A DNA stretch of 64,000 bases from Candidatus Dormiibacterota bacterium (GTDB lineage: Bacteria > Chloroflexota > Dormibacteria > CF-121): positions 1-64,000 of the forward strand of contig DASZZN010000049.1 of assembly GCA_035544955.1 (NCBI GenBank), read 5' to 3'. Positions 9,206-60,857 of this stretch are shown one piece after another. The translations under genes and the position numbers were made by a program. The stretch's first letter is position 1. Each line of letters begins with the position of its first letter. The notes under the pieces are model-generated. The model was given only the letters and a program-made list of their open reading frames with translations, was not told the DNA's origin and did no database searches.

Positions 9206-9298
9206 GGAGCGGTCGCCTAGTCTGGTCGAGGGCGCGGCACTGGAAATGCCGTAACGGGCGTACCCCGTTCGCGAGTTCGAATCTCGCCCGCTCCGCCA
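9206..9298 (+). tRNA. tRNA-Ser (anticodon GGA), intact, CCA encoded
   Basis: The acceptor stem GGAGCGG pairs with CCGCTCC. The D-arm follows, then anticodon stem CGGCA/TGCCG with loop CTGGAAA giving anticodon GGA. A long class II variable arm precedes the T-arm GCGAG-TTCGAAT-CTCGC, and discriminator G plus CCA ends the gene. The length (93 nt) and long variable arm fit tRNA-Ser. From C9235, the first base of the anticodon stem, to the CCA, 64 bases recur exactly at 17108-17171 and 18901-18964, marking this gene as an integration target. Confidence 0.96.
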
Positions 9299-17107: not shown

Positions 17108-17171
17108 CGGCACTGGAAATGCCGTAACGGGCGTACCCCGTTCGCGAGTTCGAATCTCGCCCGCTCCGCCA
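17108..17171 (+). repeat. 64-bp tRNA-Ser 3' duplicate (att-like site, copy 2)
   Basis: It is identical to 9235-9298, from the first base of the anticodon stem through the CCA. The upstream sequence lacks a D-arm and 5' acceptor strand, so this is not a functional tRNA. It marks the junction between elements A and B. Confidence 0.92.
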
Positions 17172-17595
17172 CCATATCCGGTAGCCACTGAGGCCATGGC
17201 CCGCACGTCTTTGCTTGTGCGGGCAGGTTTGTGACGGTTGCTAGCGAACAGATCGCCTGAAGAAGGTCGAACGTTCGTCTGCATGAGTTTCGGGGTGATC
17301 GGACCGCAGATAACCCACACTGTGGATCCGGAGGCGGTCGCGGCATTAGCGGGCCGAATCAGCCGATTTTCAGGAAATGCCGCGACCTCCAAGCCCCCTC
17401 AGGCCGTCGCGTTTCGATGCTCAGGCAGAGGGTCGCCCGCGGAAGCAATCGGTTACCTCGCGGCGCAGGAAGGGCTATCTCGGCGGTAGGCGATCAAGTG
17501 AGCCGAAGTTCCCATTGAACGCTCCGTGAAACCGGGCTACGATCTGCCCACGGAGTGGTGCGCCTGGTCCCATTCCGATAAGGAGGCCGGAGAAG
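17172..17595. other. Left end of element B; no gene seen; inverted-repeat module
   Basis: The sequence resembles 9299-9431. The 50-bp module at 17337-17386 has GTCGCGGCATTAGC, 22 bases, then GGAAATGCCGCGAC. Compared with element A, the module is present in the opposite orientation, and even its 22-base centre aligns after reverse complementing. The promoter of the collagen-like gene presumably lies in the last 150 bases. Confidence 0.6.
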
Positions 17596-18537
17596 ATGGG
17601 AACACCCCTTTCGCAGCTATTTCGACGCCTAAAGACTTCGCGATTGTTGTCGTCGGCGATTATCGGCGGCGTCGTATTGATTGTAGCCGGGACGGCTGGG
17701 GTTGCTGACACGAGTCCCACCACGTTTTTCGGTTGCCTGACCAATGGTGGGACCCTGCACAAGATCACGACGGACCCAAGCGCTCAGCCGACCTGCAATG
17801 GGAATTCGACCCTTGTTACGTGGAGTCAGGTCGGCCCGCAGGGTCCGCAGGGGCCTCAAGGCCTTCAGGGACTAAAGGGCGATACCGGAGCCACCGGGCT
17901 GCAAGGACTGAAGGGCGATGCGGGTCCGGCCGGGCTGGCTGGGCCGAAAGGCGACACCGGTGCCACCGGGGCACAGGGTCCCGCCGGCCCTAAGGGCGAT
18001 CCCGGCTCACTGAACGGTCTTGCCGAGTTCACATCCTCAGGCAACTTCACAGTCGCCTCCGGGGTCACTCACGTCTTCGTGGAGATATGGGGTGGCGGTG
18101 GAGGCGGATCAGCCACCTGCGGGAGCGGTGGCGGCTCGGGCGGTTACCGTCGGGCGGTGATCGCCGTGACACCTGGTCAAACCTATGTCGTCACGGTCGG
18201 TACTGGCGGGACCGGGTCGACAGTCATCAACGTCTCAGGGAATCAAGGCGGCAGTTCCTCATTCGGGAGCCTGGCAACTGCCACAGGGGGTGCCGGTGGC
18301 GATGGTACGGAGTGCATTTTTGGCGGCTTCGGTGGGACTGGCACCGGTGGGGTCGGGGTTTCACGGGATGGTCACCCAGGGCAGGGTCTTGCTGGTGTTC
18401 CAGGTTCTGGTGGCTCTCCAGTCAGTGGGTCAATTGAGAAACCGGGGGGAGGCGATGGTTTCGGTCGGGGTGGAGACGGCTTTGGTCCTAGTCAGAACGG
18501 GAACGGGCAAGACGGGTACGTTCTGATTCTCTGGTAA
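17596..18537 (+). CDS. Collagen-like triple-helix repeat protein with glycine-rich C-terminal domain
   Basis: The 313-aa protein has an N-terminal membrane or signal segment ([20 protein letters not shown]) and a short Cys-containing region ([14 protein letters not shown]). About 20 Gly-X-Y triplets follow at residues 80-140 ([20 protein letters not shown] type). Then comes a glycine-rich domain of about 170 residues containing [10 protein letters not shown] and [15 protein letters not shown]-like strands. It is probably exported or surface exposed and may trimerise through the collagen stalk. AAGGAGG lies upstream, and a strong terminator follows. It is the only cargo of element B. Confidence 0.85.
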
Positions 18538-18866: not shown

Positions 18867-18900
18867 ACATGTGACCCTCGGAATGAGCCTTTTTGAGGGT

Positions 18901-18964
18901 CGGCACTGGAAATGCCGTAACGGGCGTACCCCGTTCGCGAGTTCGAATCTCGCCCGCTCCGCCA
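18901..18964 (+). repeat. 64-bp tRNA-Ser 3' duplicate (att-like site, copy 3)
   Basis: It is identical to 9235-9298. It should be the distal attachment site, i.e. the displaced original 3' end of the tRNA gene. Downstream sequence no longer resembles the element left ends, and chromosomal coding begins 32 bases later. Confidence 0.92.
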
Positions 18965-18995
18965 TCACACCCGCTGGTCGCCGCTTCGACGTAAA

Positions 18996-19427
18996 GTGGC
19001 AGCTGTGAGGTCGATCGGTGTCGGCCAGGAAGGGCTGCTCGAGCAGAAGGTCGGGCCCGAACACGGTGCCGACCGCCTCCAGAATGCCGGCGTGACGGTG
19101 CTGGCCACGCCAGTCCTGTGTCACTGGTTCGAGTCGGCGGCGGTTCGTGCGATTGCCGAACAGCTCGAACCCGGTGAGGCCAGTGTTGGCACCCGCGTCG
19201 GCTTCGAGCATCTCAAGGCCACACCGGTGGGGATGCAGGTTCGAGTGATCGCGCGCGTGGCCGCCGTCGACGGACGCCGGGTCGACTTCGAGATCTCGGC
19301 CTTCGACGAGGTCGAGTTGGTTGCTCGGGGCACGCACCAGCGCGTGGTGATTGACCTCGAGCGATTCCTCGCCCGTGTCCAGGGCAAGCGCGCCTCCGCC
19401 TTGAAGGGGGGTCCGGATGTCCGCTGA
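18996..19427 (+). CDS. FlK-like hot-dog thioesterase family protein
   Basis: The 143-aa protein fits the fluoroacetyl-CoA thioesterase-like hot-dog family: VLATPVLCHWFESAAVRAIA, then VGTRVGFEHLKATPVGMQVR, then DGRRVDFEISAFDEVELVAR and a GTHQRVVIDLERFL end. It would hydrolyse a small acyl-CoA, but the substrate is unknown. The start is GTG, with another GTG nine bases later. It overlaps the OsmC gene by 11 bases, so the two form an operon. The distal att-like repeat ends just 31 bases upstream, so its native promoter may have been displaced. Confidence 0.8.
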   Translation: MAAVRSIGVGQEGLLEQKVGPEHGADRLQNAGVTVLATPVLCHWFESAAVRAIAEQLEPGEASVGTRVGFEHLKATPVGMQVRVIARVAAVDGRRVDFEISAFDEVELVARGTHQRVVIDLERFLARVQGKRASALKGGPDVR

Positions 19428-19845
19428 CGACCTGGTGATCAACCGCGTCGTCTCCTCCAGCAGCGCGACACCGGGGCGCGCCATCAACCAGGTGCGCAAC
19501 CACCAGCTTGTCATTGACGAACCAACTCACCTGGGTGGGCCGGGGGAACAGATCACTCCGGCGGAAGCGTTCCTGGCCGGCGTCTCCGCGTGCGGGGTGC
19601 TGCTGGTGCAGGGGCGGGCCGGGGACACCGGGGTGCGCCTGGACCAGGTCGAGGCCACCATCGAAGGGGTCCGGCATCGGTCGGACACGTCGGTCTTCCA
19701 GCGGATCGAGATTCGGTTCCGCCTGTCTGGTCCAAGCCAGGCAGAGGCGGTCGACCTCGTGGAGCACTACAAGCGCCGTTGACCACTCTATAAGGCGGTC
19801 GCGGTCGCGACCACGGTCGACATACAAATACAGGTGATCGCCTAG
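19417..19845 (+). CDS. OsmC-family protein, candidate selenoprotein (in-frame TGA at codon 122)
   Basis: Read to the first stop the protein is 121 aa and lacks the OsmC C-terminus. The frame continues past the TGA at 19780-19782 for 20 codons to a TAG, giving PLYKAVAVATTVDIQIQVIA, a normal OsmC ending. The TGA stands where the second redox Cys sits; the OsmC at 60417 reads KKNCPVSKAL at this place. The first Cys is present in GVSACGVLL. A GC-rich hairpin with loop GGTC follows at 19797-19812. Read-through as selenocysteine gives 142 aa, the family's usual length. The alternative is a nonsense mutation of a Cys codon. The family reduces organic hydroperoxides or handles thiols. Confidence 0.7.
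19797..19812 (+). promoter_or_regulatory. SECIS-like hairpin downstream of the in-frame TGA
   Basis: GGTCGC-GGTC-GCGACC forms a perfect 6-bp stem with a four-base loop GGUC. The loop starts 20 bases after the TGA, within the usual range for bacterial SECIS elements, whose apical loops carry early G residues. It lies inside the extended coding frame, as bacterial SECIS elements do. Confidence 0.6.
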
Positions 19846-31438: not shown

Positions 31439-32394
31439 TCAGCGAGCGTTCCGCCGACGAGGCCTCCCACCCGGGCGTTCGCACCATCAGCTACGACCTG
31501 CTCAAGGAGATCGCGATCGCGATGGTGATCTCCCTGATCGTCATCCTCGGGCTCGCCATCTTCCTATCGTCGCCTGATGTTCCGTCGGTCACGATCCAGA
31601 GCTGGGCCCAGGCGGATCCGGTGGATTTCACGACGACGGCGAACGATGAACTGGCCGGGCAGAGCGTCACCGCCAGCTACGGACCACCCTATAACCACGG
31701 CAGCGGGTCGGTGCAAACGATCGGGCCGTTTTCACCGCAGTCCTGGGCGGGGGTCCATGCGAATGTCGACCAGCCGCACGACTTCGTCATCAGCCCGCTC
31801 AAGCAGGCCGCCGGAAACAACACCCAGCTGAGCGGCGTGATCACCACCTACGAGGCGGCGTCGGCCGACCAGCAGGGCAAGTGGCATGATGCGTACGCCA
31901 AGGCCTTGAAAGACGCCAAGGTCGCGAACGGCGCCGTCACGGTGGCCGCCGGCGACTACGGCCCGGTCCCGGTCATGCTGGCAGTTCTCGTGCAACTGGC
32001 TCAGGCGGGAGCGCTGGATGGGCTGCTGCTTTCTAGCAACCACTTTTACCAGACCGACTACACCAAGCCCCTGCTCTTCATCAATGACGGCGGTTATGTG
32101 CCGGGCCTCGCGCATGACCAGCATCTCACCGGCAACCAGTGGGGCATGATGAACGAGACCGGGCTGTATCCCGGCCAGACCTGGCTCTGGCTCTACACGC
32201 TTTGGTACCAGCTCCCGCCCTTCAACCAGGTTTCGTATGGGGACCTGCTGGTGGTCCTGATGATGGGGCTGCTGACCGTGTTATTGGTCCTGGTGCCATT
32301 CATCCCGGGCCTACGCGATATCCCACGCTGGATCCCGATCTATCGGCTGATCTGGCGGCGCTACTACGCCGAGACGAAGGCGACCGCCCGCTAG
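31435..32394 (+). CDS. Cytochrome b C-terminal/subunit IV-like protein with a large extracytoplasmic insert
   Basis: The 319-aa protein has an N-terminal membrane helix (EIAIAMVISLIVILGLAIFL) and an extracytoplasmic region of about 200 residues with no haem-binding CXXCH. The C-terminal part has at least one helix (VVLMMGLLTVLLVLVPFIPG) and a DIPRWIPIYRLIWRRYY tail. Location after cytochrome b6, with a 4-base overlap, suggests a subunit IV equivalent. The family of the insert is unknown to me; the canonical PEWY motif was not found. Confidence 0.65.
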   Translation: MISERSADEASHPGVRTISYDLLKEIAIAMVISLIVILGLAIFLSSPDVPSVTIQSWAQADPVDFTTTANDELAGQSVTASYGPPYNHGSGSVQTIGPFSPQSWAGVHANVDQPHDFVISPLKQAAGNNTQLSGVITTYEAASADQQGKWHDAYAKALKDAKVANGAVTVAAGDYGPVPVMLAVLVQLAQAGALDGLLLSSNHFYQTDYTKPLLFINDGGYVPGLAHDQHLTGNQWGMMNETGLYPGQTWLWLYTLWYQLPPFNQVSYGDLLVVLMMGLLTVLLVLVPFIPGLRDIPRWIPIYRLIWRRYYAETKATAR

Positions 32395-60416: not shown

Positions 60417-60857
60417 CTAGGCCGTGACACCGCTCTTGAGCGTTGCCTGCAGGGTGATGGGGGTCGCCGCCAGAGCCTTCGAGACGGGACAGTTCTTCTT
60501 GGCGTCTTCGGCCAGCCGCTTGAACGTTGCCTCGTCGATGCCGGGGACGTTGCCTTCGGTCGCGAGATCGATGCGCGAGATACCCCAACCCGCATCGGAC
60601 TTGTCGAAGTGCACGGTGGCTTTGGTCCGAATTTCCTGCGGCGCGTGTCCCGCTTGCGTGAGGCCGCTGGCGAAGGCCATGGAAAAGCAGCCGGCGTGCG
60701 CCGCGCCGATCAGCTCTTCGGGGTTGGTGCCGGAACCATCCTCCATCCGGCTCTTGAACGAATACGAACCTTCAAAGGCGCCGCTTCCCAGTCGCATCGT
60801 TCCCGATCCGTCTTGCAGCGACCGTTGCCACCTGGCCTCCGCAGTACGTACAGGCAT
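60417..60857 (-). CDS. OsmC-family peroxiredoxin (both Cys present)
   Basis: The 146-aa protein matches the OsmC/Ohr family: GTNPEELIGAAHAGCFSMAF with the first Cys, and EDAKKNCPVSKALAATPITL with the second. It would reduce organic hydroperoxides using the Cys pair. It is the ordinary-Cys counterpart of the TGA-containing OsmC at 19417-19845 and helps align that gene's recoded position. It precedes the alcohol dehydrogenase gene by nine bases on the same strand. Confidence 0.92.
   Translation of the reverse strand: MPVRTAEARWQRSLQDGSGTMRLGSGAFEGSYSFKSRMEDGSGTNPEELIGAAHAGCFSMAFASGLTQAGHAPQEIRTKATVHFDKSDAGWGISRIDLATEGNVPGIDEATFKRLAEDAKKNCPVSKALAATPITLQATLKSGVTA

Follow-up and report, generated by a model that had tools for sequence, protein, structure and literature searches.

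An OsmC-family gene from Chloroflexota with selenocysteine predicted at the second catalytic position

Gene organization at the locus

The window, by which we mean the complete stretch of 64,000 nt that was analysed, corresponds to contig C49 in the genome of a soil bacterium from the Chloroflexota, which measures 3.67 Mb and is 95% complete. It carries an OsmC gene which is interrupted by an in-frame TGA and overlaps a thioesterase gene at its start. A second OsmC gene, located on the opposite strand, was used for comparison (Table 1). Thioesterase and OsmC protein are probably co-translated here, yet the thioesterase is not a conserved partner; the arrangement is common to only one of the relatives examined (L113).

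Table 1. Positions in the window of the OsmC gene, its functional elements and the genes discussed with it.
Feature	Position	Strand	Description and basis
FlK-type (fluoroacetyl-CoA-specific) thioesterase gene	18996..19427	+	Pfam FlK 4.5e-31; overlaps OsmC start by 11 nt
Predicted OsmC-family selenoprotein gene	19417..19845	+	142 codons, start ATG 19417, UGA (predicted Sec) codon 122, stop TAG 19843-19845; translation, Pfam OsmC, AlphaFold model
Cys59 codon TGC, peroxidatic Cys equivalent	19591..19593	+	alignment to solved Ohr/OsmC; invariant in 37/37 homologues
In-frame TGA, predicted selenocysteine 122, Ohr/OsmC resolving Cys equivalent	19780..19782	+	translation, alignments, relatives
Candidate SECIS hairpin GGTCGC-GGTC-GCGACC, within coding sequence (VAVAT codons)	19797..19812	+	arms 19797-19802 and 19807-19812, loop 19803-19806; covariation, RNAalifold, strict pattern after 1/1754 window TGAs
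Two-Cys OsmC peroxiredoxin, comparison gene	60417..60857	-	NCBIfam TIGR03562 3.9e-54; alignment

The original prediction, which was made from the letters of the window alone, had described an OsmC reading frame with an internal TGA, followed in the same frame by a regular OsmC C-terminus. Both statements were borne out. The read-through product has 142 residues and ends in ...EHYKRRUPLYKAVAVATTVDIQIQVIA. Pfam OsmC (PF02566) matches residues 41-136 and thus extends across the TGA (E = 1.3e-13), with a score of 51.7 bits against a cut-off of 27.5. This match and the fold of the structural model assign the protein to the OsmC/Ohr superfamily. It had also been claimed that the TGA occupies the column of a Cys in the second OsmC protein (KNCPVSKAL), and the alignment of the two proteins confirms this. 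An in-frame UGA that is aligned with Cys in homologues is the pattern by which a selenoprotein is recognised. The predicted redox pair of the protein is C59/U122, and its Sec motif reads UPLY.

A covarying hairpin follows the TGA

A 6-bp stem with the loop GGUC had been predicted downstream of the TGA, and was found exactly as described: the stem starts 14 nt and the loop 20 nt after the TGA. The hairpin alone has a predicted energy of -9.6 kcal/mol, and its geometry satisfies the published model for bacterial SECIS elements (PMC13188914). It resembles elements of the E. coli fdhF type in directly following the UGA, in having its loop at a distance of about 20 nt, in carrying G/GU at the apex and in having a predicted energy below -7.5 kcal/mol. 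It differs from them in its short, uninterrupted stem of six pairs, to which one covarying closing pair around the GU is added.

The stem alone is weak evidence, because 181 of the 1754 TGAs in the window (about 10%) have a generic SECIS-like stem behind them, and generic SECIS prediction was not counted as proof. The strict form, with seven Watson-Crick pairs around GU, is found after a single TGA, which is that of the OsmC gene. We consider conservation and covariation among relatives to be the decisive evidence. The spacing of 14 nt between TGA and hairpin is constant in every Sec form. In all 33 distinct sequences, each of the seven position pairs is complementary (231 of 231 cells), while control positions obtained by sliding were paired in at most 73%. 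Compensatory changes on both sides occur in three pairs and 22 cells, a result reached in none of 500 shuffles. Each of the three covarying pairs connects two third codon positions within the VAVAT stretch; the codons are otherwise constant, and selection on the protein is weak at these positions. Apical loops are GGUC, CGUG or AGUU, so that the loop ends covary and the central GU is kept; one Actinomycetota copy has a GGAC loop, with GA in place of GU.

Conservation in relatives and exchange with cysteine

The TGA is kept in 35 distinct homologues, which are 33 of the 37 full-length ones and two partial ones (L107, L146); the remaining four full-length homologues have a Cys codon (TGC or TGT) in this column. 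Assembled genomes, for the most part metagenomic, are the source of all members, and TGA forms are distributed over Chloroflexota and two Actinomycetota bins. Clear members were detected in 27 of the 400 Chloroflexota genomes drawn (23 with TGA, four with Cys codons). In the phylum to which a Thermoleophilia bin belongs, 2 of 346 genomes also have the TGA form.

Behind the TGA, the frame is under purifying selection. The 12 closest genomes show no nonsynonymous difference in codons 1-10 after the TGA, and dN/dS is about 0.25 in the codons beyond the stem. The original prediction had itself named a finding that would speak against it, namely close relatives with mostly TGC or TGT and decay after the TGA. 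This was looked for, and what was found is a conserved TGA with a selected frame behind it.

The most direct alternative is that the TGA is a real stop, leaving an OsmC protein of 121 residues or a decaying pseudogene. UGA does terminate translation in genomes without read-through, and SECIS-like stems are common enough in the window to occur by its side. However, the TGA column, the frame behind it and the covarying hairpin are all conserved across the phylum, other homologues carry Cys in the TGA column, and truncation would cost the protein its second catalytic position and its last strand. As the covariation at third codon positions contradicts a stop or a pseudogene, we rejected this reading, which we regard as extremely improbable.

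The clade of the window protein, termed Family A, is monophyletic with support 100/99. Its Sec and Cys states require at least three changes on the tree. Neither the hairpin nor the VAVAT peptide is present in any of the four Cys homologues. A sister pair illustrates the difference: L085, with TGC and a broken stem, groups with L040, which has TGA and an intact stem (support 100/99). The tree itself fixes no direction, but broken hairpins and the scattered occurrence of Cys forms favour repeated loss of Sec to Cys.

An in-frame TGA in a conserved gene might also mean that the lineage as a whole reads UGA as Trp, Gly or Cys in place of Sec. However, five members of the same family (L011, L015, L022, L026, L029) terminate at a TGA, which is therefore a true stop there. 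In addition, the TGA in question is always paired with the SECIS hairpin and is exchanged only with Cys, and the genome has Sec machinery. Global recoding was rejected on these grounds and has a negligible probability in our view.

Selenocysteine machinery and assignment as a selenoprotein

A search for selA, selB, tRNA-Sec and selD in the same genome had been proposed, and all four are present. The tRNA-Sec, with anticodon TCA, is located on another contig than the OsmC gene. The selA and selB genes are adjacent and form an operon; selA was identified by its sequence and by this adjacency. SelD scores 394 bits. The selD gene (L076, G000:C50:24617-25543) itself looks like a selenoprotein gene, with an in-frame TGA in the N-terminal loop that is followed by a possible hairpin.

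SelB occurs in 22 of the 23 genomes with a Sec form. This co-occurrence adds little, because SelB is present in 315 of the 400 Chloroflexota genomes (79%). SelA was detected in one Actinomycetota bin; no true tRNA-Sec was found in the Actinomycetota bins, in which the best matches to RF01852 are tRNA-Ser.

According to the mechanism that we propose, SelA, SelB, SelC and SelD of this genome would decode UGA codon 122 as selenocysteine, directed by the SECIS in the coding region 14 nt downstream. Sequence evidence supports the UGA and its conservation, the covariation of the SECIS, the presence of Sec machinery, the OsmC fold and the equivalence of positions; the insertion of Sec itself is what we infer. 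The gene had been called a likely selenoprotein, and the conserved TGA, the covarying SECIS and the Sec machinery support that call; none of the findings named as speaking against it turned up. We consider it almost certain that the OsmC gene codes for a selenoprotein.

Relation to the known OsmC selenoproteins

The original prediction was aware that OsmC-like selenoproteins had been predicted earlier, and knew of none in this kind of lineage. An earlier type does exist, as stated, but it is common in Chloroflexota. This is the OsmC-like UxxT protein described from the selenoproteomes of the Sargasso Sea and of GOS (PMC1088965, PMC2398784, PMC13188914), which corresponds to NF041052, the single OsmC selenoprotein model among the NCBIfam matches. 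The two types share the OsmC fold, the replacement of one catalytic Cys by Sec and an in-frame UGA with a downstream hairpin, and both are common in this phylum.

The window protein scores only 42.1 bits with NF041052, where the cut-off is 95, and the two types form separate clades on the tree. Of the 26 Chloroflexota members above the cut-off, 25 carry a TGA, and it lies at the first catalytic position. They read ...FULLTQ..., which fits the published UxxT motif, and have Cys at the second position; it is by this motif agreement with NF041052 members that we place the Sec of the published family. The window clade is the mirror image: Cys is invariant at the first position, which in the window protein is Cys59, and Sec (UPLY) or Cys is found at the second. 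As Sec would occupy the other catalytic position, the window protein appears to be more unusual than had been thought.

A review published in May 2026 catalogues 119 families and subfamilies of prokaryotic selenoproteins, among which UxxT is the single OsmC entry; proteins with Sec at different positions are treated there as separate subfamilies (PMC13188914). No description of Sec at the second OsmC position was found in the literature searched, and a report elsewhere is possible. Judged by the position of Sec, the clade very probably represents a new OsmC subfamily, and we are similarly confident of the combined statement that it is a selenoprotein and belongs to an OsmC subfamily not catalogued previously.

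This second OsmC selenoprotein subfamily, with Sec at the catalytic position opposite to that in UxxT, would be widespread in an under-studied soil phylum, the Chloroflexota. No curated model among those searched covers it, and annotation therefore probably treats its genes as coding for truncated OsmC proteins. With the two subfamilies, Sec-first, Sec-second and Cys-only versions are available in one small, easily expressed fold, together with natural Sec/Cys sister pairs, which makes a clean test of the role of selenium at the resolving site feasible. The same comparison addresses the question why lineages gain or lose selenium.

Both OsmC selenoprotein types occur together in some genomes (G006, G015, G143, G159, G258). 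Chloroflexota genes of the NF041052 type (L045-L070) likewise carry a hairpin behind the TGA at a comparable spacing, and in many of them the loop contains GU. In the genome of the window, the NF041052-type gene (L075 about 2060-2390; G000:C12 about 31560-31890) looks broken, as the segment with the Sec codon is missing and a frameshift follows. Either real decay or an error of assembly may account for this; sister genomes have intact copies.

Catalytic residues and proposed function

The AlphaFold model of the protein has a mean pLDDT of 94.7, and its best structural match is Ohr/OsmC (E 4.3e-10). By sequence alignment to solved Ohr proteins, Cys59 corresponds to the peroxidatic and Sec122 to the resolving position. 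Arg21, Cys59 and a Cys or Sec at position 122 are each found in 37 of 37 homologues. The protein shares with the two-Cys peroxiredoxins of the Ohr/OsmC type (TIGR03561, TIGR03562; PDB 6mjn, 1n2f, 1nye) the fold, the invariant Arg, the first catalytic Cys and the location of the second catalytic position. It scores below the curated cut-offs of these models and differs in having Sec in place of the second Cys. A further difference concerns the Glu that is catalytic in Ohr (Glu51 of the X. fastidiosa protein). Its column is not conserved in the window family (A/I/G/V/M/T/S), and in 36 of 37 homologues the next position holds an acidic residue.

The cycle of Ohr starts with oxidation of the first Cys to a sulfenic acid; the second Cys then resolves this intermediate, and the disulfide so formed is reduced by a lipoylated protein (PMC5962072). 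We propose an equivalent cycle in which the thiolate of Cys59, activated by Arg21, would reduce an (organic) hydroperoxide, yielding the alcohol and itself becoming a sulfenic acid. Sec122 would attack this intermediate through its selenolate to form an intramolecular Cys59-Sec122 selenenylsulfide, which a dithiol (lipoylated protein or thioredoxin) would reduce. Selenium at the resolving site may speed up resolution and guard Cys59 from over-oxidation. Because the Glu column is not conserved, we call peroxidase activity by the Ohr mechanism likely and no more; the order of the chemical steps and the reductant are part of the proposal. An OsmC/Ohr-fold thiol peroxidase that has Sec122 in the resolving role and runs through this specific cycle is the interpretation that we favour, with clear reservations.

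Two other readings were weighed. In selenoperoxidases the attack is usually carried out by Sec, which depends less than Cys on activation by the protein, and the column of the Ohr triad Glu is not conserved. The roles may accordingly be swapped, with Sec122 attacking the peroxide and Cys59 resolving, which would make selenium peroxidatic as it is in other selenoperoxidases, but at the opposite end of the fold. We regard this as unlikely: Arg21 and Cys59, which make up the peroxide site in Ohr, are invariant, the model retains the OsmC/Ohr fold, and the second Cys of Ohr is the resolving one (PMC5962072). It seems still more doubtful that the two subfamilies represent a role inversion within one fold, having Sec at either end, with the C-terminal Sec peroxidatic here and Cys59 resolving.

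The other reading accepts the selenoprotein and takes Cys59/Sec122 as a thiol-disulfide centre or as a redox centre for handling selenium or sulfur, with no peroxidase function. It could draw on OsmC-fold proteins to which no function has been assigned, on the differing Glu column and on the overlap with the thioesterase gene. The context comparison also revealed no conserved gene neighbour beyond the genus that would hint at function, substrate or reductant. However, the solved sequence relatives and the structural neighbours are mostly Ohr/OsmC hydroperoxide resistance proteins, and both redox positions are invariant, as is the Arg. We therefore consider a function other than peroxidase improbable, and retain the peroxidase with a resolving Sec122.

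tRNA-Ser repeats upstream of the OsmC operon

An intact tRNA-Ser(GGA) is encoded at 9206-9298 (+). Two copies of its 3' part, each of about 75 nt, are found further downstream in the same orientation, at 17108-17183 and 18901-18971 (+), and are 96-99% identical. A tRNA-like stretch at 18879-18961 was considered as tRNA-Sec and rejected, since it was not called by ARAGORN and corresponds to a 3' fragment copy of this tRNA-Ser. The att-like arrangement of the repeats suggests two tandem integrated segments that end just upstream of the OsmC operon. No integrase match was obtained for the ORFs scanned between the repeats. A protein with a collagen-like repeat and a glycine-rich domain is encoded at 17596-18537 (+), inside one of the putative integrated segments.
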